A stretch of DNA of 21,947 nt from a virus, in the IMG/VR virus record IMGVR_UViG_3300042450_001213, positions 1 through 21,947 of that record. One strand, 5' to 3'. Positions 391 through 21,542 of this stretch are shown piece by piece. Made by a program: the position numbers and the translations under genes. The stretch's first letter is position 1. Each line of letters begins with the position of its first letter. Below the pieces are notes generated by a model. It was not told the origin of the DNA. It made no database searches and worked only from the letters and a program-made list of their open reading frames with translations.

Positions 391-420
391 AATGGGGGTC
401 AATGACCCCCATTTTTGTTT
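391..420. terminator. Bidirectional intrinsic terminator
   Basis: An inverted repeat, AATGGGGGT (391-399) against ACCCCCATT (405-413), is flanked by T-rich sequence on the + side (412-420) and an A-rich run on the other side (383-391), which becomes a T-run for minus-strand transcription. It lies between the convergent peptidase and Clp genes and can serve both. It overlaps the last codon of the Clp gene. Confidence 0.8.
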
Positions 421-2419
421 AGTTTATAATAACATTTTCATCTGCGACAGTTAAAGCGTATTTTGTATTTTCTTTAACTATATTGTTTAATACTTCATCT
501 GATATTAAATCTTCAATTTTATCTTGTATCGCTCTTTTAATTGGTCTAGCACCGTAAGTTTCATCGAATCCAACTTTTCTAATTAAATCAATTACTTTAT
601 CATCATAAGTGAATTCATAATTCGCATCACTCAATCTTTTCATTAATTTATTTAATTCTAATTTTGTTATTTCTTTAACATTATCATCTGTTAAAGTATT
701 GAACACGATTGTTTCATCAATACGATTTAAGAACTCTGGCGTAAAGAATTTTTTCAATTCTTTTAATAACATTTCTTTTTTAGCTTCTTCATTTCCGTAT
801 TTTGAATTACTAAAACTAATACCAGTTCCAAAATCTTGGAATTTTTTAATCCCCAAGTTTGAGGTTAATACGATGATTGTATTTTTAAAATTGACTGTTT
901 TACCTAGGCTATCAGTTAGATGACCATCATCTAATATTTGCAATAGTAAATTAAATACATCTTTGTGAGCCTTTTCAATCTCGTCAAATAAAATGATTGA
1001 ATAGGGGTTATTTTTAACTTTTTCAGTTAACTGACCACCTTCTTCGTGTGAAACATATCCTGGGGGTGAACCAATTAGTCTTGATATGGTGTGCTTTTCT
1101 TGGTATTCACTCATATCAATTCTTATAATTGATTTTTCATCACCAAATAATTGTTTTGCTAATTGTTTGGCTAACATAGATTTACCTACACCAGTTGAGC
1201 CTAAAAATATAAAGCTACCGATTGGTTTATTTGGATCCTTAATGTTTAATTTGTTTCTCTTTATTGATTTAACAATTGAATTTACTGCCAAATCTTGACC
1301 AATTACATTTTCTTTAAGTTTTTTATCCAAATCTATTAATACTTTCTTGTCGTCAACAGATAGATGAGATATTGGTATATTTGAGATTAATGAAATTGTT
1401 TCATACACATCATCTAACTCGACAATTTTCTTGTTTTCTAATGTATCTTTCTCAAATTTTTTATTTTCCGCTTCTAGTTTATTAAATAACTTTAATTCCT
1501 TATCTCTTATCTCGGCAGCCAATTCATATTGTTGGTTAATAACTACTTTCGTTTTCTCCGCTTTTAGTTCATTTATTTTTTCCTTCAATTTTTTAATTGA
1601 TTCTGGAATTTTAATGTCAATCTGTAATTTTGCACCAACTTCATCAATAATATCAAAAGCCTTGTCTGGGAAAGCACGATCGGTAATATACCTATCAGCA
1701 AGTTTCACACAAGCACTAATAATTTCTTTACCATACGAAACTTTATGATGGGACTCGTATTTGTCAATTGAATTATTAACAATTTGAATGGTTTCATCCA
1801 CATTAGGTTGGGTTAATTTTATCTTTTGGAATCTTCTGGCTAATGCCCCATCTTTCTCAAAAGATTTTTTATATTCATCAGTAGTTGTTGCACCAATACA
1901 TTGTATTTCACCAGATGCTAATGCTGGCTTAAATATATTAGCCCCATCCATAGCACCAGAGGAATTTCCAGACCCAATTAATGTATGTATTTCATCAATA
2001 AAAATAATAACATTTGGATTTTCGTTCAATTCTTGAATTATAACTTTTAATCTTTCTTCAAATTGTCCCCTATATTTTGTTCCAGCAACAACCGATGTTA
2101 AATCTAAATTAACAATTCTTTTATTTAATAAATTTTGAGGACCTTCACCTCTTGAAATCATTAGGGCTACACCCTCAACCAAGTTGGTTTTACCACAACC
2201 TGGGTCACCAACAATAATCGGATTATTTTTCTTTCGCCTTGATAGGATTTGAGCTAATCTCTTAACTTCTTTATCCCTACCAATAGACATATCTAACTTA
2301 TTCATCTCTGCTAATTTAGATAAATCCCTACTAAAATTATCTAAGACAGGTGTTTTAGACCCTGAGTTAGATTTCTTACCTTTCATTGCTTTTTCATCAT
2401 CAAAGAAATCAACATTCAT
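419..2419 (-). CDS. ClpC-like double AAA+ unfoldase without Clp N-domain
   Basis: Hsp100/Clp ATPase of 666 residues that would unfold or disaggregate proteins in the cytoplasm using ATP. Residues from the chosen start: first AAA+ module with Walker A GDPGCGKT (71-78), pore loop KYRGQ (115-119), Walker B IIFIDE (138-143) and arginine finger RR (195-196); a short middle region with a UVR-like QQYELAAEIRDKE stretch (about 296-308), as in ClpC and much shorter than the ClpB middle domain; second module with Walker A GSTGVGKS (407-414), pore loop GYVS (454-457), Walker B ILFDE (476-480) and sensor-2 GARPIKR (623-629). The Clp N-terminal repeat domain is absent; about 20 linker residues precede the first module. 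A GISF segment (533-536) sits where ClpC/ClpA carry the ClpP-docking loop. An in-frame TTG at 2449 is possible, but the ATG at 2419 lies 22 bases after a TATTTATA element, as in other genes here, so I prefer it. Confidence 0.93.
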   Translation of the reverse strand: MNVDFFDDEKAMKGKKSNSGSKTPVLDNFSRDLSKLAEMNKLDMSIGRDKEVKRLAQILSRRKKNNPIIVGDPGCGKTNLVEGVALMISRGEGPQNLLNKRIVNLDLTSVVAGTKYRGQFEERLKVIIQELNENPNVIIFIDEIHTLIGSGNSSGAMDGANIFKPALASGEIQCIGATTTDEYKKSFEKDGALARRFQKIKLTQPNVDETIQIVNNSIDKYESHHKVSYGKEIISACVKLADRYITDRAFPDKAFDIIDEVGAKLQIDIKIPESIKKLKEKINELKAEKTKVVINQQYELAAEIRDKELKLFNKLEAENKKFEKDTLENKKIVELDDVYETISLISNIPISHLSVDDKKVLIDLDKKLKENVIGQDLAVNSIVKSIKRNKLNIKDPNKPIGSFIFLGSTGVGKSMLAKQLAKQLFGDEKSIIRIDMSEYQEKHTISRLIGSPPGYVSHEEGGQLTEKVKNNPYSIILFDEIEKAHKDVFNLLLQILDDGHLTDSLGKTVNFKNTIIVLTSNLGIKKFQDFGTGISFSNSKYGNEEAKKEMLLKELKKFFTPEFLNRIDETIVFNTLTDDNVKEITKLELNKLMKRLSDANYEFTYDDKVIDLIRKVGFDETYGARPIKRAIQDKIEDLISDEVLNNIVKENTKYALTVADENVIIN

Positions 2420-2433
2420 AGCTTTTATTTTTT

Positions 2434-2441
2434 TATAAATA
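2434..2441 (-). promoter_or_regulatory. Candidate late promoter element of the Clp gene
   Basis: Reads TATTTATA toward the Clp gene, 22 bases before the ATG at 2419, followed by an A-rich leader. It is the same element as seen before nine other genes in this window. Read on the + strand it is TATAAATA, the T4 late promoter octamer, so its orientation is not certain. Confidence 0.5.
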
Positions 2442-2472
2442 TCATACAATTTTCGGACTAATCAAATATTTT

Positions 2473-2536
2473 TGACAAATTGTCATAAATATAATAAAGA
2501 ATATGACAAATAGTCATACTATATGACAAAATGTCA
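2473..2536. promoter_or_regulatory. Three TGACA-N3-TGTCA palindromes (operator-like)
   Basis: Three 13-base near-perfect palindromes lie between the divergent Clp and Hsp20 genes: TGACAAATTGTCA (2473-2485), TGACAAATAGTCA (2504-2516) and TGACAAAATGTCA (2524-2536). The second has one mismatch in its right arm. Their starts are 31 and 20 bases apart, about three and two helical turns, so a dimeric regulator could bind them on one face. The cognate regulator is not in the window. The arms do not match the CIRCE element. Confidence 0.65.
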
Positions 2537-2585
2537 TATAAAAATAAATTGGCATTTAATTTGACTTTATGAAAAAAAAAATAAA

Positions 2586-2593
2586 CATTTATA
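2586..2593 (+). promoter_or_regulatory. Candidate late promoter element of the Hsp20 operon (variant)
   Basis: CATTTATA followed by an A-rich leader, 20 bases before the ATG at 2606. It differs by one base from the TATTTATA element before other units, and it is the weakest member of the set. Confidence 0.35.
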
Positions 2594-2605
2594 AAAATTA
2601 AAATT

Positions 2606-3019
2606 ATGAAAGACAGAGATTATTTAGCAGAGTTATTATTTGGATTATCAAATCCATTTGCCCCATCAAGTTCGTTTGGGTTTACATCAGATTCCACTTA
2701 TGGACCTTATGGGGTTAAACATAATACCTATGATAGCGAATATGATATTGAATTAACTAAGGATGGCGCATACATATCCTTTGAAGTCCCCGGATTTACC
2801 AAAGATAACTTAGAAATATCTATAGAAGATAGAGTTATTATAATTAAAGGTGAAAGAATTATCAACAAGAAAGGTGTTGTTAAAAATATACTTCACAATT
2901 ATAAAGTTGATAGTAACTTTAATGAATCAAATATTGAAGCTACGGTATCAAATGGTATTTTAACATTATTTTTACCAAATTATATCGCTAAATCTAAAAA
3001 AACAATAACAATTAACTAA
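2606..3019 (+). CDS. Hsp20 / alpha-crystallin small heat shock protein
   Basis: A 137-residue ATP-independent holdase that keeps unfolding proteins soluble for refolding by other chaperones. An N-terminal arm rich in Ser, Phe, Gly and Pro (1-40) precedes an alpha-crystallin domain (about 43-135). The family signatures visible are FEVPGFTKDNLEISIEDRVI (59-78), a following KGER strand, and near the end ATVSNGILTLFLPN, the conserved A-x-x-x-NGxLxxxxP region. Length is normal for bacterial Hsp20. T4-like cyanophages are known to carry Hsp20 genes, so a phage copy is not unprecedented. The ATG lies 20 bases after a weak late-type element, and the palindromes upstream suggest extra control. The stop codon at 3017-3019 directly abuts the next start. 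Confidence 0.93.
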   Translation: MKDRDYLAELLFGLSNPFAPSSSFGFTSDSTYGPYGVKHNTYDSEYDIELTKDGAYISFEVPGFTKDNLEISIEDRVIIIKGERIINKKGVVKNILHNYKVDSNFNESNIEATVSNGILTLFLPNYIAKSKKTITIN

Positions 3020-3451
3020 ATGACAAAAGTAAAAATTGACACAGCAAAAGGAGTTATGATTGCTGAATTGTATGACAACGAAACTCCAATTACAGTTGAT
3101 AATTTCAAAAAATTAATCAGCGAAGGCTTTTATAATGGATTAAATTTCCATAGGGTTATTCCCAACTTTATGATGCAAGCAGGTTGTCCAAATGGAGTTG
3201 GAACTGGTGGCCCAGGATATACCATTAAATGTGAGGTTAATGCTGATAAGCAACACCACGATAGGGGGGTATTGAGTATGGCTCATGCTGGTAGGGATAC
3301 TGGGGGATCACAATTCTTCATATGTTATAATAGGCAAGGTGTTGCTCATTTGGATGGAAATCATACATGCTTTGGTAAAGTTGTTGATGGGTTGGATGTA
3401 ATTGATTCAATTAGCCAAGGTGATTTAATAAATAGTATTTCAATAATTTAA
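3020..3451 (+). CDS. Cyclophilin-type peptidyl-prolyl cis-trans isomerase
   Basis: A 143-residue single-domain cyclophilin, which speeds cis/trans isomerisation of X-Pro bonds during folding. The catalytic FHRVIPNFMMQAG segment (43-55) contains the key Arg45, with Phe50 and Gln53; MAHAG (87-91), SQFFI (97-101) and HLDGNHTCFGKV (110-121) complete the active-site set. No signal peptide is present, so it should act in the cytoplasm. The start codon follows the Hsp20 stop with no gap, so the two are almost certainly co-translated. Cyclophilins of this compact kind are common in bacteria including Bacteroidota; a copy inside a phage structural region is unusual and suggests acquisition from a host. 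All active-site residues appear intact. Confidence 0.93.
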   Translation: MTKVKIDTAKGVMIAELYDNETPITVDNFKKLISEGFYNGLNFHRVIPNFMMQAGCPNGVGTGGPGYTIKCEVNADKQHHDRGVLSMAHAGRDTGGSQFFICYNRQGVAHLDGNHTCFGKVVDGLDVIDSISQGDLINSISII

Positions 3452-12768: not shown

Positions 12769-13470
12769 ATGAAATTCGGTGAAGTTAAAACAATTGTAGA
12801 AAATAATTTAATTGATTCTGTTAAGGATAAAAGTATTTTTAAAGAAAATATAAAAAACTTTAAAAAGCATTTCTTAAAAGACCCAAACTTATCTAAGTTA
12901 TACTTAATATATGATGATTTATTAAAGCCTAGGGGGTTAAATGAAGAAGAGGCTAATAAGTATTTAACCGAGGGAATTAATTGGGCAAAATCTTTACTTA
13001 AAACCACTAACATACCAATAGTTAAGAATAAAATAAATGAAAACAATTATCAAATTATTGATTCATTAGTATATGAGTCAGCAAGAACAATTGATGAATC
13101 TTTGGATTTTAAAAATAAAATATTAACCATACTTCAAACAAAGCCTTCGGATAATACAAAAATCATTAAGTTACCAATCAGCACAATGGTTAAAATATCA
13201 AATGAAAAAATTAGCGAATATCTGGGTAGATTTGATGAATCTTCGAGAAAAGAATTAATTTCATTATTGTCAGAAAACAAAGATGATTTGAAGAATAAAT
13301 TTAAAGACTTGAAAGAAAGTACTATAATAAAATTAAATTCATTAAAAGAGTCTGAAAATGATTTAGAAGTGAAAAATAAAATAGATAAAACAATTACAAA
13401 AGTCACATTAGAAAGTTTTGATATTTTAAATTATCATACATTAAATAAACTAAATGAATCACTTAATTAA
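12769..13470 (+). CDS. Unknown helical protein between portal and protease
   Basis: 233 residues, Lys/Glu/Ser/Asn-rich and predicted almost entirely alpha-helical, with heptad-like stretches (for example about 165-215). No Cys, no signal peptide, no recognised domain. Its place between portal and prohead protease is where T4 keeps its small prohead core genes 67 and 68, and high helix and charge content would suit an internal core protein, but there is no sequence similarity I can point to. It has its own late-type element and 59 bases of spacing before the next gene. Confidence is for the reading frame being a real gene, not for any function. Confidence 0.75.
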   Translation: MKFGEVKTIVENNLIDSVKDKSIFKENIKNFKKHFLKDPNLSKLYLIYDDLLKPRGLNEEEANKYLTEGINWAKSLLKTTNIPIVKNKINENNYQIIDSLVYESARTIDESLDFKNKILTILQTKPSDNTKIIKLPISTMVKISNEKISEYLGRFDESSRKELISLLSENKDDLKNKFKDLKESTIIKLNSLKESENDLEVKNKIDKTITKVTLESFDILNYHTLNKLNESLN

Positions 13471-13478
13471 AACAATTA

Positions 13479-13512
13479 TTTGACGTAACCATTATTTTTC
13501 GTTATACTTTTG
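13479..13512 (+). promoter_or_regulatory. Candidate Bacteroidota-type host promoter
   Basis: TTTG (13479-13482) and TACTTTTG (13505-13512, matching TAnnTTTG) are separated by 22 bases, within or close to the range described for Bacteroidota housekeeping promoters. A start near 13518-13520 would leave about 11 bases before ATG 13530. No TATTTATA element is present here, unlike the neighbouring units. Confidence 0.45.
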
Positions 13513-13529
13513 ACATAATAACTAAGTAA

Positions 13530-13970
13530 ATGAAAAATGGGAAGAAGGTAAAACTAAAAATTTATAACAATTTAAAAATATTCTATGGTACAATTGATTA
13601 CAAAGAACTGAAATCTATTTACATCACTATACAGGCTTGGGCTGAACCAAAAATTTATAGTGAAAATTGGAAGAGAATTGTATTATCACAAAGTAGAGAA
13701 ATAAAACATACTATCTACGATAATATAACCAATAATATTTTTTATGAAAATATTATTGTAGATTTGGATGTTAGATACAGCGGTATCGAGATTGAAAAAA
13801 AATCATTTATGAATCTTGAAATCACACTATTAACCAAACCAAATATTGATTTTAAGGCTCAATCTACCAAAGATTCAGTTAAGAAAATAATCAGACAAGT
13901 TTGTATGAATAATTTAAATAGGAATAAATATTTTGATTTTTATTTAACAAAAAGAGATTTAATTGTTTAA
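13530..13970 (+). CDS. Unknown 146-residue basic protein
   Basis: A Lys/Ile/Tyr/Asn-rich protein with a beta-strand-dominated first two thirds (KVKLKIYNNLKIFYG, IYITIQAWAEP, NIIVDLDVRYSGIEI) and a basic helical end (DSVKKIIRQVCMNNLNRNKY). It looks like a small globular fold and may bind nucleic acid, but I recognise no family. It is the only gene in the head module whose upstream sequence resembles a host-type promoter and not the late-type element, so it may be expressed earlier than its neighbours. It ends 37 bases before the protease ATG, whose own late-type element lies in that gap. Confidence 0.75.
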   Translation: MKNGKKVKLKIYNNLKIFYGTIDYKELKSIYITIQAWAEPKIYSENWKRIVLSQSREIKHTIYDNITNNIFYENIIVDLDVRYSGIEIEKKSFMNLEITLLTKPNIDFKAQSTKDSVKKIIRQVCMNNLNRNKYFDFYLTKRDLIV

Positions 13971-13985
13971 ATTAATATATTTTAA

Positions 13986-14000
13986 TATTTATTATTAAAA
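13986..14000 (+). promoter_or_regulatory. Candidate late promoter element of the protease-LRR unit
   Basis: TATTTATT (13986-13993) followed by A-rich sequence, 22 bases before ATG 14008. Confidence 0.5.
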
Positions 14001-14007
14001 TAATATT

Positions 14008-14709
14008 ATGAATACTCTGAGAATATTAGAAGCAAATGAAATTGGTCACGGGATATTAATAGAATCCGATGCTGGGTGGATTAACCCCAAAGACCAATTA
14101 AATGTTAATTTAATACAAGAAAACAAAAAGTTAGATTATAAGAACCCTTTTGAATTTTATGCTGTATTGCAAAAGCACGATGTACCAAATAGAAATGGTA
14201 GAACATATCCCGAAAAAATATTAAGAAGGGAGGCTGAAAGATACAAGCAAATTATTGAAAAGGGTTTATCTACATCCGAATTAAATCACCCCGAATCATC
14301 CTTAATTGACTTAGATAGAGTTGCCCACTTAATAACAGAAATTTGGTGGGATGACAATATATTAATGGGTAAATTATTGCTATTAACCTCTCCTGGCTTT
14401 CACCAGAGCGGTGTTGTATCAACCAAGGGTGATGTTGCCGCAAATCTAATGAGGCAAGGAGTGAGCCTAGGAATCAGTTCTAGGGGGGTTGGATCACTTA
14501 AAAAAGTTGGGGAGAAAAATGAGGTTCAAGATGACTTCGAATTGATTTGTTTTGATTTGGTTTCATCGCCATCAACGCCTGGGGCATACTTGTTCTCAAA
14601 TAAGGAAGATAGGCATAAGTATGATGAAAAACTAGAAGAAGAAAAGAAAATTGACCCCTCAACTAATATATTAAAATTAATGAATAAACTTGATAGTTAT
14701 TTAAAATAA
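14008..14709 (+). CDS. 21: Prohead core protease, T4 gp21-like (family S77)
   Basis: A 233-residue serine protease that cleaves capsid and core proteins inside the prohead and then itself. Visible catalytic context: His94 in ELNHPES, Ser157/Ser158 in SLGISSRGVGS (the S-x-S-S-R-G block typical of the family), and an acidic residue Asp183 in CFDLVSSPS as candidate third member. The RNGRTYPEKIL segment (62-72) and the VAHLITEIWW...GKLLLL strands (105-126) also match the fold. Length is close to T4 gp21 (212). It has its own late-type element and lies between portal and scaffold, as in T4. The first LRR gene follows with only one intervening base, so the LRR array should be co-transcribed with it. 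Confidence 0.93.
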   Translation: MNTLRILEANEIGHGILIESDAGWINPKDQLNVNLIQENKKLDYKNPFEFYAVLQKHDVPNRNGRTYPEKILRREAERYKQIIEKGLSTSELNHPESSLIDLDRVAHLITEIWWDDNILMGKLLLLTSPGFHQSGVVSTKGDVAANLMRQGVSLGISSRGVGSLKKVGEKNEVQDDFELICFDLVSSPSTPGAYLFSNKEDRHKYDEKLEEEKKIDPSTNILKLMNKLDSYLK

Positions 14710-14710
14710 A

Positions 14711-15418
14711 ATGGAACCCAACACATTAAAAAACATATTTAATTTTCTTGAAAAGAATGATAACAGAAATGTACCATTTATATGGAAAATGAAAAATAAT
14801 ATGCCATTAACAGAAGAAGATTTGAATGTTAAAGGTGATTTGCATTTATCAAATAGAAACATAACCTCACTACCAAAAGGCTTGAAAGTTTATGGGAATA
14901 TGAGTTTAGGTTATAGTAAAGTAAGAAAATTACCAGAAGGATTAGAAGTTGGCGGCACGCTAAATGTTTCTGATAGTATGATAAGAACATTACCAAAAGG
15001 ATTAAAAGTTAATGATAATCTGATTATGTCTTTTACAAGTATAGGAATACTACCAAAAGGATTGGAAGTTGGTGGAGTTATCTATGCAATAAATAGTCAT
15101 ATATTTAATATAGGTGAAATACCAAAAGGTGTAATAACACAAGGAATTGTAACTACCTCCGAATTAATAGTTAATTCAAATTTAACAATAACTGATGATT
15201 TGGATTTATCATTTACAAACATAACCTCACTACCAAAAGGATTAAAAGTTAATGGCAATCTGTTTTTAGGGGATTCAAGTATAAAATCATTACCAGAAGG
15301 ATTACAAGTTGGTGGTAATTTAAATATTAGAAATACACGATTAGCAAAACGTTCAGATGAATATTTACTAAAAATGATTGGTCCAACTGGCAATATAAAA
15401 GGTTCAATAAATAGATAA
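14711..15418 (+). CDS. Leucine-rich-repeat-like protein, paralogue 1
   Basis: 235 residues: N-terminal cap TLKNIFNFLE (5-14) and W-K-M...P-L-T-E-E-D-L, then about seven repeats of some 20 residues with the pattern xxITSLPKGLKVxGxLxL, interrupted in the middle by a degenerate unit (IGEIPKGVITQGIV, about 136-149), and a C-terminal cap (SDEYLLKMIGPTGNIKGSI). The repeats should stack into a curved solenoid like other LRRs, usually a binding surface. No signal peptide or membrane span, so it would be cytoplasmic or virion-associated. It begins one base after the protease stop. Target unknown. Confidence 0.85.
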   Translation: MEPNTLKNIFNFLEKNDNRNVPFIWKMKNNMPLTEEDLNVKGDLHLSNRNITSLPKGLKVYGNMSLGYSKVRKLPEGLEVGGTLNVSDSMIRTLPKGLKVNDNLIMSFTSIGILPKGLEVGGVIYAINSHIFNIGEIPKGVITQGIVTTSELIVNSNLTITDDLDLSFTNITSLPKGLKVNGNLFLGDSSIKSLPEGLQVGGNLNIRNTRLAKRSDEYLLKMIGPTGNIKGSINR

Positions 15419-15420
15419 TA

Positions 15421-15822
15421 ATGGAAATAGCAACATTAAAAAACATATTTAATTTCCTTGAAGTAAATGAAAAAAAATTATCCATAAAATGGAAAATGAT
15501 GAATAAAATCCCCTTTACTAAAGAACAATTATATGTCAAAGGTGATTTGGATTTACAAGGGGAAGACATAGAACAATTGCCAGCAGGGTTATATGTTAAA
15601 CGTAATTTATTGTTAAATGCCACACCAATAAAAAAATTACCAAAAGGTTTAAGAGTTGGTGGTGATTTGCAGTTACAAGATTGTGAAAATTTAAAATCCC
15701 TACCAAAAGATTTAAAAGTTCGGGGTAATATATGGCTTGGTGGTACACCATTAGGAAGAATGTCAGATGAGAAAATATTAAACATGGTAAAACCAGATGG
15801 CTATATAGGTAACATATATTAA
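15421..15822 (+). CDS. Leucine-rich-repeat-like protein, paralogue 2 (shortest)
   Basis: 133 residues with the same caps as its neighbours (TLKNIFNFLE at 5-14; MSDEKILNMVKPDGYIGNI near the end) but only about three full LPxGLxV repeats between them. One repeat carries the Cys variant (QDCENLKSLP) that dominates paralogue 4. The gap from the previous gene is two bases and to the next one base. Because both caps are intact it looks like a genuine short family member, not a truncated one, which implies that repeat number is free to vary. Function unknown. Confidence 0.83.
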   Translation: MEIATLKNIFNFLEVNEKKLSIKWKMMNKIPFTKEQLYVKGDLDLQGEDIEQLPAGLYVKRNLLLNATPIKKLPKGLRVGGDLQLQDCENLKSLPKDLKVRGNIWLGGTPLGRMSDEKILNMVKPDGYIGNIY

Positions 15823-15823
15823 A

Positions 15824-16414
15824 ATGAAAGAAGAAACATTAGGAAAGATATTTGAATTTATCAAACAAAAGGGCGAACAAAATTTACCATTATTTTGGAA
15901 ATTGAAAAATGATATACCATTAACAGAAGAAGATTTGACTTTTAAAGGTGATTTAAATTTAGAAAATTCAAAAATAACCTCCTTACCAGATGGTTTGAAA
16001 GTTGAGGGTGATTTGATGTTAACCTTTTCAGAAATAACCTCATTACCAGATGATTTACAAGTTGGTGGTCATTTAAACATAATTGGTTGTGATGCCATAA
16101 ACTCATTACCAAAAGGATTAAAAGTTGGTGACAGCATTCAATTATCACCAAAACGAATAGTTTCCATTGGGGAAGGATTGTTTGTTGGTGGAGATTTAAA
16201 TTTATTTAATAGCCAAATAAAATCATTACCCCAAGGAGTTAAAATTGGGGGAGAGTTAATATTATCCTTTACAAAAATAGAAACATTACCAAAAGGTTTG
16301 ATAGTTAAAGGTGGTTTGGATATTGCTGGAACACCATTAGAAAAGTATTCAAATGATGAATTAAGAAAAATGGTTAAACCTGGAGTTATAAAAGGGTCAA
16401 TAATTAGAGATTAG
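15824..16414 (+). CDS. Leucine-rich-repeat-like protein, paralogue 3
   Basis: 196 residues: N-terminal cap (TLGKIFEFIKQKGEQNLPLFW), then about six repeats, including a degenerate one (IVSIGEGLFVGGDLNL), and the C-terminal cap (YSNDELRKMVKPGVIKGSI). The repeats follow the pattern ITSLPDGLKVEGDLML. Cap-to-cap similarity with paralogues 1, 2 and 4 shows that the array arose by gene duplication. It starts one base after its neighbour's stop and ends two bases before the next start, so all four are translated from one message. Confidence 0.85.
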   Translation: MKEETLGKIFEFIKQKGEQNLPLFWKLKNDIPLTEEDLTFKGDLNLENSKITSLPDGLKVEGDLMLTFSEITSLPDDLQVGGHLNIIGCDAINSLPKGLKVGDSIQLSPKRIVSIGEGLFVGGDLNLFNSQIKSLPQGVKIGGELILSFTKIETLPKGLIVKGGLDIAGTPLEKYSNDELRKMVKPGVIKGSIIRD

Positions 16415-16416
16415 AA

Positions 16417-17580
16417 ATGAAAATAGAAACATTAAAAAGAATATTTGATTTTCTTGAAAATAAAGAAACCAAAAAACATAAAGCCAAAGCAACTTTAAAG
16501 TGGAAGTTGTTTTTTAATGAACCATTAACAAAAGATGATTTGATTGTTAATGGGGATTTAAATTTGGCAAATTCAAAAATAACATCTTTGCCAGAAGGAT
16601 TGGAAATTAAGGGTACTTTGGATTTAAGAAATTGCACAAGTTTAACATCCTTACCACAAGGATTGGAAATTAAGGGTTCTTTGGATTTAAAAAATTGCAC
16701 AAGTTTAACATCATTACCACAAGGATTGAAAGTTGGTAGTGATTTAAATTTATCTAATTGCACAAGTTTAACATCATTACCACAAGGATTGAAAGTTAAG
16801 GGGGATTTAGATTTATATGGTTGTAAAAACTTAAAATACTTACCAATAGGATTGATAGTTGTTGGTGATATAAATTTACAATACTCAACAATAACAACCT
16901 TACCAGAAGGATTACAAGTTGGTGGTGATTTGAATTTATATAATTGCAAAAGTTTAAAATACCTACCAAAAGTATTAAAAGTTGGTGGTTTTTTAAATTT
17001 AAACAATTGCACAAGTTTAACATCACTACCAGAAGGATTAGAAGTTGGGGGTACATTATATTTAAAGAATTGTTCCAAATTAAAATCATTACCAACAGGA
17101 TTGAAAATTGGAGAGGCTTTGGAATTGAATGATACAAATATAACTACTCTCCCAAAAGATTTGAAATTTGTTCCTAATTTGGGTTTATCAGGTTCTAAAA
17201 TAATGTCATTACCAGATAATTTACATGTTAGGGGTAGGTTAGATTTGGCTTTTTGTGAAAATTTAACTTCATTACCAACTGGATTAAAAGTTGATGGTGA
17301 TTTAATATTAACCTTTGCAAAAATAACCTCATTACCAGATAATTTACAAGTTGGCAAATATTTGGATTTGGGTAATACAAAAATAACTTCACTACCTAAA
17401 GGGCTAAAAGTTGGTAGTAGATTGAATATAAGTGGTACACAAATAACCTCATTACCAAAAGGACTAAAAGTTGGAGAAAATTTACTTATAATGAACACAA
17501 ATTTAAAAAAATATACTGATGAAGAATTAAGAGAAATGGTTAAGCCTGGATTTATAAAAGGTGAAATATATAGAGGATAA
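16417..17580 (+). CDS. Leucine-rich-repeat-like protein, paralogue 4 (longest)
   Basis: 387 residues with about fifteen repeats between the shared caps (TLKRIFDFLE near the start; YTDEELREMVKPGFIKGEI at the end). Two repeat types alternate: a 21-residue unit with an NCTSLTSLP core, where Asn and Cys occupy the ladder position, and a 20-residue unit with SKITSLP or TKITSLP. The first five repeats are nearly identical at DNA level, which suggests recent internal expansion. A long antisense frame (16404-17498) is a by-product of the repeats. It is the last gene of the protease-LRR unit; no clear terminator follows. Binding partner unknown. Confidence 0.87.
   Translation: MKIETLKRIFDFLENKETKKHKAKATLKWKLFFNEPLTKDDLIVNGDLNLANSKITSLPEGLEIKGTLDLRNCTSLTSLPQGLEIKGSLDLKNCTSLTSLPQGLKVGSDLNLSNCTSLTSLPQGLKVKGDLDLYGCKNLKYLPIGLIVVGDINLQYSTITTLPEGLQVGGDLNLYNCKSLKYLPKVLKVGGFLNLNNCTSLTSLPEGLEVGGTLYLKNCSKLKSLPTGLKIGEALELNDTNITTLPKDLKFVPNLGLSGSKIMSLPDNLHVRGRLDLAFCENLTSLPTGLKVDGDLILTFAKITSLPDNLQVGKYLDLGNTKITSLPKGLKVGSRLNISGTQITSLPKGLKVGENLLIMNTNLKKYTDEELREMVKPGFIKGEIYRG
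16631..16819 (+). repeat. Three 63-base near-identical LRR-coding repeats
   Basis: Units start at 16631, 16694 and 16757. The first 35 or so bases of each (ATTGCACAAGTTTAACATC and the following TTACCACAAGGATTG) are nearly identical, while the tails vary. A further related unit begins at 17006, an in-frame 249 bases later. Confidence 0.85.
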
Positions 17581-17624
17581 AAAAATTTAATTATTTTTCA
17601 TTATTTTTACAAAAAAAATAACTA

Positions 17625-17632
17625 TATTTATA
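17625..17632 (+). promoter_or_regulatory. Candidate late promoter element
   Basis: TATTTATA within CTATATTTATACAAAC, 31 bases before ATG 17656; the largest distance in the set. The upstream stretch ATTATTTTTCATTAT (17590-17604) resembles 13491-13505 before the gene at 13530. Confidence 0.5.
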
Positions 17633-17655: not shown

Positions 17656-17865
17656 ATGGATGAAAAATTCTTTGTTGCCAGATTAACTTTTTCTCTACCT
17701 GATGAGAATACTGGTAAAATGAAAAAAGTAAGAGAAGAGAAATTAGTTAAAGGTTATTCTGTTACAGATGTTGAAGCAAAAGTTACTGAAAAGTATCAAA
17801 ATTTCACACAAGAATGGAGAATAACTGCTGTGTCAGAATCAAAAATTGATGAAGTTTTCCAATAA
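17656..17865 (+). CDS. DUF4494-like small protein
   Basis: 69 residues. The pattern FFVARLTFSLPDENTGKMKK, then an EKLVKGYSVTDVEAKVTEKY helix, a strand EWRITAVSESKI and a final DEVF, resembles the start of DUF4494, a domain of unknown function that I recall mainly from Bacteroidota and their phages. It is shorter than the usual family length, so it may be only the core. It stands alone between a late-type element and a strong terminator, just upstream of the scaffold gene. The match is by memory of the pattern and is moderate. Confidence 0.65.
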   Translation: MDEKFFVARLTFSLPDENTGKMKKVREEKLVKGYSVTDVEAKVTEKYQNFTQEWRITAVSESKIDEVFQ

Positions 17866-17886
17866 AAACTAATTGTTTTTCTCTTA

Positions 17887-17920
17887 AACCCCTAGCATAA
17901 ATAATGTTAGGGGTTTTTTT
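17887..17920 (+). terminator. Intrinsic terminator after the DUF4494-like gene
   Basis: A 12-base-pair stem, AACCCCTAGCAT (17887-17898) against ATGTTAGGGGTT (17904-17915), with one G-T wobble, five-base loop and a run of seven T. Confidence 0.9.
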
Positions 17921-17967
17921 ATTTTAAAAAAAATATTGATAATCAGTAACTTTTTTGTTTTTTGATA

Positions 17968-17980
17968 TATTTATTATAAA
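17968..17980 (+). promoter_or_regulatory. Candidate late promoter of the scaffold-capsid unit
   Basis: GATATATTTATTATAAAA region, core TATTTATT 17968-17975, 28 bases before ATG 17996, with an A-rich leader and no Shine-Dalgarno sequence. No equivalent element precedes the capsid gene itself. Confidence 0.55.
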
Positions 17981-17995
17981 AATAAATAAAAAACT

Positions 17996-19729
17996 ATGCA
18001 ACCTGAAAAAAATTTAGTAGAAGAAGCACTAATTCAAATGAAACAAATTGAAGATGTACTTTCAGAAAGCGCAAAAGGAATACTTTCTTCAACAATGAAG
18101 GAAGAAATCAACGAACTAGTTAAGGAATCATTAAATGAGCAAGAAGACGAAGATGAAATGGATATAGATATGGATTCTGAAGATGATATGGAAATGGATT
18201 CTGAAGATGATATGGAAATGGACTCTGAAGATGATATGGAAATGGACATGGATGATGAAGATGACATGGAAATGGGCATGGAAGATGAGGATGATATGGA
18301 AATGGATGATGATGTCATTGACATGAGGGGAGCTTCACAAAGTGAACTTTTAAAAGTATTTAAAGCTATGGATGGTGATGATGGTATTATCATATCTAAA
18401 AATGGTGAGGATATTTCATTAACAGATGAAGATTCTGATTCTGAATATTTAATAAAATTAGGAGAACAAATAGAAAATTTTGGTTCTGGTATGGATGATG
18501 ATATGGAATTTGATGCTCAAGAATATGGTATGAGATATTTTAATGACGACGATGAAGAAGGTGATTTTGAACCTTTTGATGACGAAAACGAAGATGTTGA
18601 TATGGACTATGCTATGAGCAAAAGACTTGGTTTGAAATATTTTAATGACAACGAAGATGAAGAGGATGATGATATGGAATTAGATGAAGATGACCATATG
18701 GAGGGTGATTATGTTGAAGAAGATTATGATATGGAACTAGACGAAGATGATACTCAATCAACAATTGATAAAATCTTCGAAAATAAAGATGAAATTATAT
18801 ACGAAATTGAAATGGATGAACAAGAAGAGTTTGATATGGAAGATGAAATGGATGTAGATATGGAAGATGAAATGGATGTGGATATGGAAGATGATATGGA
18901 AATGGGTATGGAAGATGAAGAAGATTTTGATTGTTCTAATTTTAGCACTGCTAGTTATTTAGAAAAAAATCCAAAAGCAACAATTTCTGATGTATATTCT
19001 TATTTACAAGAAATGGGTTGTTTAGGTGGTGGAAATGACACAATTGGTGAGAATTATAACTATTTAGGTGAAGGTAAAAAAGGTCCTAAGTTTAAGTACA
19101 AAATGCCAACAAAAGGTTTTGACGAAAAAAAGAAAGAAGGTCCTAAAAAAGTTGGGACAGGAAAACCAAAATTCCAGTACGATACAAATGCCGAAAATAC
19201 TAACGGTAAAATGAAAACAGTTACTGGTAAAAGAAAGGAAACCAAAGAGGCATCAAGAACTTACGCTATGGGCAGTAAAGAAGGAAGAGGCCTTAGAAAA
19301 GGCGTAACACCAAATAGAAATTTACATTTAGAGGCTTTAGAAAATCAAGTTATTGATTTAAAACAAAAAAATAATGATTATAAAAAATCATTAAACATTT
19401 TTAGAGAAAAATTAACTGAAGTAGCCGTATTTAATGCAAATCTGGCATATGCCACTAGATTATTTACTGAACATTCAACAACTAAAAAAGAGAAAATAAA
19501 TATTTTGAGACGCTTTGACGATGTTCAATCATTACAAGAATCAAAAAATTTATATTCCTCAATTAAAAATGAATTATCTAAAGGTGTTGAGCCGACAATT
19601 AATGAATCTGTAAATAGAAAAATAACAAATGTTGCATCTACAGGTTCATCTGCTAACTTAATTGAATCTAAAACTTATGAAAATCCACAATTTTTGAGGA
19701 TGAAAGATTTAATTTCAAAATTAGGTTAA
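17996..19729 (+). CDS. 22: Prohead core scaffold protein, T4 gp22-like
   Basis: 577 residues, roughly twice T4 gp22. A short helical N-terminus (1-48) leads into very acidic tracts of Asp/Glu/Met (about 50-107, 165-250 and 273-311), then a Lys/Gly-rich segment (360-440) and a coiled-coil C-terminus. The C-terminal block with VAVFNANLAYATRLFTEH (477-493) and the following KKEKINILRRFD (497-508) is the part I associate with T4-type core scaffolds. Position immediately before the capsid gene supports this. The acidic expansion is built partly from tandem DNA repeats. The LIE|S site near residue 557 and similar (L/I)xE sites would suit cleavage by the gp21 protease. Assignment rests on context plus the C-terminal block. 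Confidence 0.75.
   Translation: MQPEKNLVEEALIQMKQIEDVLSESAKGILSSTMKEEINELVKESLNEQEDEDEMDIDMDSEDDMEMDSEDDMEMDSEDDMEMDMDDEDDMEMGMEDEDDMEMDDDVIDMRGASQSELLKVFKAMDGDDGIIISKNGEDISLTDEDSDSEYLIKLGEQIENFGSGMDDDMEFDAQEYGMRYFNDDDEEGDFEPFDDENEDVDMDYAMSKRLGLKYFNDNEDEEDDDMELDEDDHMEGDYVEEDYDMELDEDDTQSTIDKIFENKDEIIYEIEMDEQEEFDMEDEMDVDMEDEMDVDMEDDMEMGMEDEEDFDCSNFSTASYLEKNPKATISDVYSYLQEMGCLGGGNDTIGENYNYLGEGKKGPKFKYKMPTKGFDEKKKEGPKKVGTGKPKFQYDTNAENTNGKMKTVTGKRKETKEASRTYAMGSKEGRGLRKGVTPNRNLHLEALENQVIDLKQKNNDYKKSLNIFREKLTEVAVFNANLAYATRLFTEHSTTKKEKINILRRFDDVQSLQESKNLYSSIKNELSKGVEPTINESVNRKITNVASTGSSANLIESKTYENPQFLRMKDLISKLG
18173..18244 (+). repeat. Three 24-base tandem repeats in the scaffold gene
   Basis: GATTCTGAAGATGATATGGA plus AATG, three times in a row, with one T-to-C change in the third copy; encodes DSEDDMEM units. 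A second 24-base tandem set, based on GATATGGAAGATGAAATGGA, spans 18833-18904. Confidence 0.9.
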
Positions 19730-19757: not shown

Positions 19758-21542
19758 ATGGGAGCATTATTAGATTCTGGTCTTGTTGGTAATATTGGGT
19801 TAAAACACCTAAAAGTTATCAAAGAGGACACAATTAGCAAATGGAATAAATTAGGATTTTTAGAAGGTCTTAAAGGTCATTTGAAAGAAAATGTAGCGCA
19901 ATTATATGAAAATCAAGCGTCACATTTAATAAACGAAGCTGCGTCAACATCTGACACAGGTGCATTTGAAACTGTTGTGTTTCCAATAGTTAGGAGAGTA
20001 TTCTCAAAATTATTAGCAAACGAAATTGTTTCAGTTCAAGCGATGAATTTACCAATTGGTAAATTATTCTTCTTTGTACCTTTAATTCAGGAAGCAAATA
20101 GTGGCGCACACTATTCACCTTATGGTGCACCAGGTGCAGCAGATAATCAAACACCAACTACTGGTTATGATGGTACTGGTAAAAATCTATATGATAGATT
20201 TTATGAAGGTAATGAGCCAGGTTTGAACCCAGAAGGTCTTTATGATTATTCAAAAGGTCAATTTAGTGCAGTTACAGCTACTTCTGTTACTGTTATTTGG
20301 AGTGGTGCTAATTTAGCAGTTAGTGGATATAGCGCTGGTGAATATAGAAAAGTTTTATTAGCTTTGTCTGGTTTTACAAGTGATGGTGCGGGTAAATTAA
20401 TCGGGCCTGATGGTCATCCAATGGACAACGAAAGTTTCTTGTCAAGTTTAAGTATATCTGCGACTACTGCGGGTGCGTTCTCTGGTGTAACTACAGCTGG
20501 TATTGGAAATCCATTATTATTTAGAGTAGTTACTCAAAAATATGGTAAAGGTATTGTTCAATATGGTGGCGAAAGAACATCAACATTCCCTAATGATAGA
20601 ACAGCTGGTGGATCATATAATGATTTATCAACACCTGCTGGTATAATTTATCTTGAAGTTGATTTACAAAGACCAGCAACTGTTGGTGTGAATTCATTAG
20701 ATGGTTATACTGGTTTTACTACAACTATCGCTGGTACTGCTGCTACAGATTTTATTGCAAGTTATAGAATTTACAAAAATTTAGAATTTGAAGATAAAAT
20801 TGGTGAGGTTTCTTTTGATTTACAATCAGTTACAGTTTCTGTAACAGAAAGAAAGTTAAGAGCACAATGGTCACCAGAAATGGCACAAGATGTTGCTGCA
20901 TTCCATAACATTGATGCTGAAGCAGAATTAACTGCTTTATTATCAGAGCAAATTGCAGCTGAAATTGACAGAGAAATTTTAAGAGACCTTAGAAAAGGTG
21001 CTGCTTGGAATTTACGTTGGGATTACAATGGTTGGAAGAGATTGGGTACAAACGCTATCCCTTACACACAGAAAGATTGGAATCAAACATTAATTACAAC
21101 TATTAACCAAGTATCAGCACAAATTCACAAGTCAACTCTAAGGGGTGGTGCTAACTGGATTGTTGTTTCTTCTGAGGTTAGTGCAGTTTTTGATGATTTG
21201 GAATACTTCCACGTATCAAATGCTTCACCTGAACAAGACCAATATAACATGGGTATTGAAAGAGTTGGAACATTAGCTGGTCGTTACCAAGTTTATAGAG
21301 ATCCTTACTTCCCAGCAAATACAATTTTAATGGGTCATAAAGGAACATCTTTACTTGACACTGGATATATCTACGCACCATATGTACCTCTACAATTAAC
21401 ACCAACAATGTATAATCCATTTAACTTTACACCAATCAAAGGTATAATGACACGTTATGCTAAGAAAATGGTTAATAACCGTTTCTATGGTAGAATTACT
21501 GTTGATGGTGTTAGAACATTTGATTTAAATGAGTTAAGATAG
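19758..21542 (+). CDS. 23: Major capsid protein, T4 gp23-like
   Basis: 594 residues; forms the hexamers of the head shell. The N-terminal propeptide (1-60) includes WNKLGFLEGLKG (29-40) and ENVAQLYENQASHLINE, ending in an I-N-E|A site at residue 60 that fits the (I/L)xE cleavage rule of gp21-type proteases and matches in position the T4 gp23 cut after residue 65. Mature-region signatures: FPIVRRVFSKLLANEIVSVQ followed by AMNLPIGKLFFFVPL, the ALLSEQIAAEIDREILRDLR helix, and the C-terminal YAPYVPLQLTP...FTPIKGIMTRYAKKM. Length is somewhat above T4 gp23 (521). It follows the scaffold stop by 28 A-rich bases with no separate promoter element, and a strong terminator follows. Confidence 0.95.
   Translation: MGALLDSGLVGNIGLKHLKVIKEDTISKWNKLGFLEGLKGHLKENVAQLYENQASHLINEAASTSDTGAFETVVFPIVRRVFSKLLANEIVSVQAMNLPIGKLFFFVPLIQEANSGAHYSPYGAPGAADNQTPTTGYDGTGKNLYDRFYEGNEPGLNPEGLYDYSKGQFSAVTATSVTVIWSGANLAVSGYSAGEYRKVLLALSGFTSDGAGKLIGPDGHPMDNESFLSSLSISATTAGAFSGVTTAGIGNPLLFRVVTQKYGKGIVQYGGERTSTFPNDRTAGGSYNDLSTPAGIIYLEVDLQRPATVGVNSLDGYTGFTTTIAGTAATDFIASYRIYKNLEFEDKIGEVSFDLQSVTVSVTERKLRAQWSPEMAQDVAAFHNIDAEAELTALLSEQIAAEIDREILRDLRKGAAWNLRWDYNGWKRLGTNAIPYTQKDWNQTLITTINQVSAQIHKSTLRGGANWIVVSSEVSAVFDDLEYFHVSNASPEQDQYNMGIERVGTLAGRYQVYRDPYFPANTILMGHKGTSLLDTGYIYAPYVPLQLTPTMYNPFNFTPIKGIMTRYAKKMVNNRFYGRITVDGVRTFDLNELR

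Follow-up and report, generated by a model that had tools for sequence, protein, structure and literature searches.

Four tandem LRR genes in the T4-type head module of a phage: one locus of a genome-wide, clade-specific family and possible binding-protein repertoire

Large and diversified families of repeat proteins are familiar from eukaryotic viruses, such as the ankyrin families of poxviruses and the LRR families of entomopoxviruses and giant viruses, some of which are used against hosts. To our knowledge, no LRR gene array has been known in other phages. In bacteria, the LPX-type LRR domains of YopM, IpaH, SspH1, and SlrP form all-LRR solenoids with a 20–21-residue LPx-G-L coil. T4-like phages of lake Bacteroidetes that encode bS21 have been described (PMC9723584), and Bacillus phage G contains a zinc-ribbon expansion of about 35 copies (PMC7824862). 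No account of LRR arrays of the kind reported here was found in the open-access literature that we searched.

We analyzed a stretch of viral DNA of 21,947 nucleotides (positions 1 to 21,947 of IMG/VR record IMGVR_UViG_3300042450_001213; hereafter the window), in which four LRR genes follow a prohead protease gene. The best explanation of these genes, to which we give a probability of roughly one half, is that they make up one of the loci of a family of single-domain LPX-type LRR proteins, clade-specific and spread over the genome, which forms a late, diversifying repertoire of binding proteins. The features of the locus are as follows.

13985..13992, + strand: ATATTTAT motif, putative late-type promoter of the protease and LRR unit, 23 nt before the protease ATG
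14008..14709, + strand: prohead (head maturation) protease, gp21 / Peptidase_S77 (PF03420, E=4.7e-23; phrog_207, E=1.8e-41)
14711..15418, + strand: LRR gene 1, 235 aa, with N-cap, C-cap, and about 8 coils, one stretch of which is irregular (ORF, anchor count, alignment)
15421..15822, + strand: LRR gene 2, 133 aa, 3–4 coils; its orthologue recurs at the protease site (ORF)
15824..16414, + strand: LRR gene 3, 196 aa, 6 coils (AlphaFold2, Foldseek)
16417..17580, + strand: LRR gene 4, 387 aa, about 15 coils (AlphaFold2, Foldseek, 63-bp tandem repeats)
17624..17631, + strand: ATATTTAT motif in the 75-nt leader before the DUF4494-like gene (motif enrichment, leader conservation)
17656..17865, + strand: DUF4494-like small protein, the right border of the array (PF14902, E=1.2e-9)
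17886..17916, + strand: hairpin resembling an intrinsic terminator, 3' of the DUF4494-like gene (13-pair stem, then a T run)
17967–17974, + strand: ATATTTAT motif of the scaffold-like gene (motif search)
17996..19729, + strand: acidic scaffold-like protein at the gp22 position (position and composition)
19758..21542, + strand: major capsid protein Gp23 (PF07068, E=1.1e-73)

The gene order is thus protease, four LRR genes, DUF4494-like gene, acidic scaffold-like gene, and Gp23. All four LRR genes are intact and separated by gaps of 1–2 bases, and the array starts 1 base past the protease stop codon. ORFs and alignment confirmed the report of the initial annotation that four adjacent genes with common caps are packed directly behind the protease. 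The scaffold-like protein had no family match in phrog and Pfam searches; its gene contains D/E/M-rich tandem repeats of a 24-bp type (window 18149–18919) and varies in length among relatives. No RNA elements were found in the window.

The four proteins have common caps, of about 45 aa at the N terminus and about 30 aa at the C terminus. Strict LPxGLxV anchors, spaced by 20–21 residues, occur 6, 3, 5, and 14 times in genes 1, 2, 3, and 4, respectively, compared with 0.02–0.04 (maximum 2) in shuffled proteins. The repeat counts given initially (7, 3, 6, and 15) are about right once degenerate coils are included. Within the 20–21-residue coils, positions 0, 1, 4, 6, 10, 12, and 17 are fixed as L, P, L, V, L, L, and I, and the general plan of the family is a helical N-cap, 3–15 or more coils, and a helical C-cap. 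The solenoid fold suggested from the repeats held up in structure prediction: AlphaFold2 gave confident LRR-type solenoids for gene 4 (pLDDT 93.8, pTM 0.86) and gene 3 (pLDDT 92.3, pTM 0.83), which together with the Foldseek results ruled out a non-solenoid structure. The top Foldseek matches were LRR proteins, with E-values down to 2.9e-6: Leptospira LRR, SHOC2, RPP1, and YopM for gene 4, and IpaH7.8, IpaH2.5, SspH1, and a flagellar-motor LRR for gene 3. Global TM scores were modest (0.3–0.6), probably reflecting differences in solenoid curvature. In Pfam, gene 4 matched LRR_EndoS (29.4 bits, cut-off 27.9), and genes 1–3 exceeded the cut-off of no LRR model.

Of the Foldseek and sequence matches whose binding role is known, bacterial LPX effectors ranked among the best. 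The phage proteins share with them the coil and the all-LRR solenoid but have their own caps, a V-x-G-x-LxL coil with one extra residue, and genes in tandem arrays; no secretion signal and no E3 ligase domain were seen. Specifically, Pfam detected no NEL ubiquitin ligase domain of the C-terminal IpaH/SspH type, and the C-cap is only about 30 aa long. No enzymatic domain and no trimerization, fiber, anchor, or signal sequence was seen in the family proteins, and none of the 18 members tested matched a PADLOC defense model. The closest solved sequence is the polar flagellar motor LRR protein (PDB 8z5u, 8z5w, and 8z60; E=2e-32, TM 0.56–0.60), a bacterial motor component whose match spans the coils but not the phage caps.

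Among phages, a coil of the same kind (39–47% identity over the repeats) is present in Edwardsiella phage Edno5 (L097, 3935–4678). In this small temperate phage, however, it belongs to a single LRR gene with different caps, located among early lysogeny and recombination genes. When three family members were used in tblastn searches of other phage lineages, only Edno5 was found, except that one member also matched EBPR podovirus 1 weakly. Two proteins of uncultured Caudovirales (A0A6J7X691 and A0A6J5LZF9) and one of Podoviridae sp. ctz6O13 are matches in fold only (24–40% in fold alignments). LRR members of the entomopoxvirus and giant-virus families were also among the Foldseek matches; the phage arrays differ from these families in being coupled and in lying at several syntenic sites in a phage, and the resemblance need not mean common ancestry. 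The zinc ribbons of phage G resemble the LRR family in that a single fold has expanded within one jumbo phage lineage, but their fold is different and their proposed role is DNA binding.

We compared the protease site in the 80 closest protease loci in IMG/VR. Loci whose protease is 87–100% identical to that of the window have up to five LRR genes, or none, separating the protease from DUF4494, and in the protease tree the LRR-bearing group is a clade (support 100/99). In the sister clade, with a protease about 75% identical, the site has no LRR gene and protease and DUF4494 are joined by 4–10 bases, which agrees with the earlier view of an insertion into a T4-type head module. A one-off insertion is ruled out by the presence of the array in relatives. 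The comparison of copy and repeat number proposed earlier was informative: LRR copy number at the site was 3, 3, 4, 5, and 5 across genomes, and alleles of gene 4 differ by whole coils (366, 387, 407, and 449 aa). Gene 2 is 100% identical in L007 and L017 despite differing protease or capsid genes. One array-free locus, L019 (a contig of only 5 kb), is nested in the LRR clade as the sister of L017 (support 99/85). Because L019 retains the DUF4494 leader of the LRR clade, a clean loss of the array is the simplest reading. The absence of LRR genes from L026 and L029 is uninformative, as these contigs stop just past the protease. With neither the sister clade nor L019 carrying it, the array lacks the conservation expected of T4 head assembly proteins.

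The sister clade is consistent with the bS21-encoding phages of lake Bacteroidetes (PMC9723584), having the same head order, a protease about 75% identical to that of the window, and bS21 beside the protease. These phages have no LRR gene at all, unlike the LRR clade. bS21 (PF01165) was found near the protease in five sister-clade records (G011, G012, G013, G015, and G016) and was undetected in six LRR-clade records; the head-module neighborhood thus carries a different accessory gene in each clade (bS21 vs. the LRR array).

When records were searched with a family profile, each long LRR-clade record gave dozens of matches. Nine sister-clade records, among them the 321- and 317-kb contigs, gave none. 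In the 270-kb record G001, 41 of 360 genes (11%) are LRR genes, occupying 8.2% of bases when whole ORFs are counted. Most of the records are genome fragments, in which the corresponding counts are 33/138 (G004), 26/144 (G003), 23/134 (G006), 19/103 (G007, near-identical to the window), 17/95 (G005), and 12/117 (G010); the family's share of DNA is 8–16%. The genes form tandem arrays of 1–13 members at about nine syntenic sites which are common to the genomes, and at one of these sites copy number is 6, 13, 9, and 10 in different genomes. The arrays are flanked by the protease, a 500-aa tail-region protein, SNF2 helicase, head-tail adaptor, M20/M42-type peptidase, PfkB kinase, RNA ligase, or a thymidylate-kinase-like gene, and some adjoin Nudix-like genes. 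A wider IMG/VR search yielded 65 newly fetched LRR loci, all of which carry core genes of the LRR clade. L090, considered as another phage type, was rejected since this record is syntenic with the 270-kb contig. A bacterial origin was also considered: cap-based patterns, which miss relatives that share only the coil, were scanned twice against 84,980 species genomes and detected no relative. Judged from these sequences, the repertoire is one of some 40 or more different LRR proteins, and none of the other viruses or bacteria that we searched showed such a repertoire. We also found no report of a phage lineage with 8–16% of its sequenced DNA in one diversifying binding-protein family.

The LRR genes evolve rapidly, with dN/dS of 0.4–0.5 or more vs. 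0.08 in the adjacent protease. In simple pairwise estimates on these recombining genes, gene 3 had a dN/dS of 0.553 over 13 loci, compared with 0.081 for the protease and 0.092 for DUF4494 in those loci; over 14 loci dN/dS was 0.489 for gene 2 and 0.083 for the protease, and it was about 1 for gene 1 orthologues (three sequences only). Values near 0.5 are given equally by relaxed constraint. Nonsynonymous change in gene 3 is zero at the buried consensus positions L0, P1, L4, V6, L10, and L12, compared with 0.06–0.18 at exposed positions. Among 120 20-residue units of G001, assigned by the canonical LRR pattern and not by a measured surface, entropy is 3.2 bits on the concave face, 1.9 bits at other exposed positions, and 0.4 bits at buried positions (difference 1.07–1.44 bits, 95% CI), and 114 distinct concave signatures are present. 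On this assignment, variability is concentrated on the face usually used for binding by LRR proteins, and we infer that the proteins bind quickly changing partners. Variability of the concave face is usual in old LRR families.

Exchange and turnover were also evident. LRR genes often lie far below their neighbors in synonymous divergence, which reflects recent exchange between lineages; between the window and L017, synonymous difference is 0.37 for the protease, 0.00 for gene 2, 0.06 for gene 3, and 0.39 for Gp23. Gene 1 of L017 has a gene-3-type sequence in its first 80 nt and then matches its own orthologue at 95–100%, and the first 40 nt of the gene-3 type in L014 are identical to gene 2. 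The N-caps are mosaic, having been swapped between family members. Where clear orthologues exist, 94 of 95 are at their own site, but most LRR genes have none, and orthologue retention is 27% for LRR genes vs. 56% for flanking genes. Paralogues within one genome have a median best identity of 52–60%, and no broken copy was seen among 145 genes in six records. With varying copy and coil numbers, raised dN/dS, turnover, and N-cap mosaics, the earlier impression of an expanding and diversifying set is well founded.

With regard to expression, 59 of 116 array junctions are TAATG, where the stop and start codons share one base, and 21 others overlap by four bases, which suggests translational coupling. 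The ATATTTATA motif occurs in 72 of 282 upstream regions from seven records (5.7 expected from shuffles), its ATATTTA part mostly 20–30 nt ahead of the ATG. TAnnTTTG, a known Bacteroidota host promoter motif, occurs in 59 upstream regions (21 expected). Both motifs are strongly enriched and could serve to sort the genes of these uncultured phages into expression classes. ATATTTATA heads the protease operon in 5/5 fetched records holding that site, and is also found ahead of scaffold, tail sheath, adaptor, and endolysin-like genes; as a ribonucleotide reductase gene is headed by it too, we infer the late class only as its likely assignment. This late-type motif heads LRR-bearing operons at seven of nine sites in at least one genome, site S8 in G001 having the host-type motif in its place, and no promoter-like motif was found within arrays. 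The 75-nt DUF4494 leader is a conserved feature of the LRR clade that the sister clade lacks. In the window, the protease and the four LRR genes would form one transcription unit from 13985–13992, with transcription probably restarting at 17624–17631 for DUF4494, after the array. The LRR proteins would then be made late, together with virion genes, so that the late timing deduced initially from co-expression with the protease survives on the strength of the promoter motif and is compatible with either virion decoration or protein binding late in infection.

Considering these features, a reasonable hypothesis is that the concave face of each member holds a specific partner protein, which would be blocked or redirected. 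Since the partner would change quickly, the likeliest candidates may be host factors (targets of defense or takeover) or proteins of rival phages. The repertoire could be kept varied by tandem duplication, gain or loss of whole coils, recombination between shared caps, and exchange during co-infection, and its siting beside the protease may represent operon hitchhiking on a late promoter with no role in head assembly. Late timing would fit poorly with early-acting anti-defense proteins, unless the products are packaged or directed at other phages. More tentatively, with dozens of late-made LRR proteins each carrying a different hypervariable face, the family might be an anticipatory recognition repertoire, renewed by duplication, coil change, and recombination, and used against varied host defenses or co-infecting phages; in that reading it would be a viral counterpart of the LRR receptor repertoires of lampreys and plant NLRs. 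Provided that the concave faces do recognize proteins of the host or of rival phages, the arrays represent a ready list of natural binders, show what phages fight against, and make genome growth in jumbo phages testable via defined genes, sites, and natural losses.

The main rival explanation is that the proteins are virion components, either late-made decorations or packaged proteins, which either attach to mucus, glycans, or the exterior of host cells or are delivered along with the DNA. The late-type motif common to protease, scaffold, and tail sheath operons, the fact that arrays at two sites belong to head and tail operons, and the common use of LRRs as adhesion modules are all in its favor. 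We nevertheless regard it as doubtful, as the proteins lack visible trimerization, fiber, anchor, or signal sequences, some arrays adjoin RNA ligase, kinase, or Nudix-like genes, 40 different decoration proteins of 3–15 coils would be unusual, and the sister clade builds heads without LRR proteins. Next comes a near-neutral or selfish repeat family, whose arrays expand and contract by recombination with little function. It would account for the free change of copy and coil number, the evident recombination, and the dispensability of the array at the protease site (L019), yet it appears improbable when 145 genes are intact with zero broken fragments in six records, buried consensus positions of gene 3 show no nonsynonymous change, 8–16% of DNA is retained for the family, and variability is focused on the concave face.

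Two further alternatives are very improbable. The arrays could serve recombination itself, with caps as homology, or gene dosage, supplying more of one protein; conserved 5' ends and mosaics are consistent with this, but the divergence of paralogues within the same genome (median best identity 52–60%) argues against dosage. A head-assembly or prohead function, proposed initially from linkage to the protease and consistent with the array lying directly 3' of that gene in the same putative transcription unit, has been largely refuted: the family is located at about eight other sites by unrelated genes, gene content at the protease site shifts between close relatives, and the array is naturally absent where head genes are intact, as in L019 and the sister clade. 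Such a role is unlikely for arrays that mostly use a late-type promoter and belong to operons unrelated to one another. The preferred reading continues to be that of a late, diversifying binding-protein repertoire.

Other features of the window were observed. The two genes upstream of the protease (12769–13970) show about 55–60% protein identity and a synonymous difference of about 0.7 to relatives whose protease is 98% identical, so that on these comparisons there is an apparent recombination boundary immediately before the protease (12769–13970 vs. 14008–14709). On the reverse strand, at 419–3451, an ATP-dependent protease gene (phrog_4871) lies beside Hsp20-like and cyclophilin-like genes in what appears to be a small phage-borne proteostasis cluster; the cyclophilin assignment is from sequence alone.

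We also asked whether the family might share a packaging signal with T4 internal proteins; an N-terminal motif search gave few matches, none linking the LRR caps. Separately, several unrelated genes of G001 (at 37307, 176492, 177198, 179736, and 181109) open with a similar short amphipathic segment (MKKIILTESELNFLIK... and MKILINENQLSDIINE...). Similar gene starts are present elsewhere too, and the segment is possibly a shared targeting or packaging tag.
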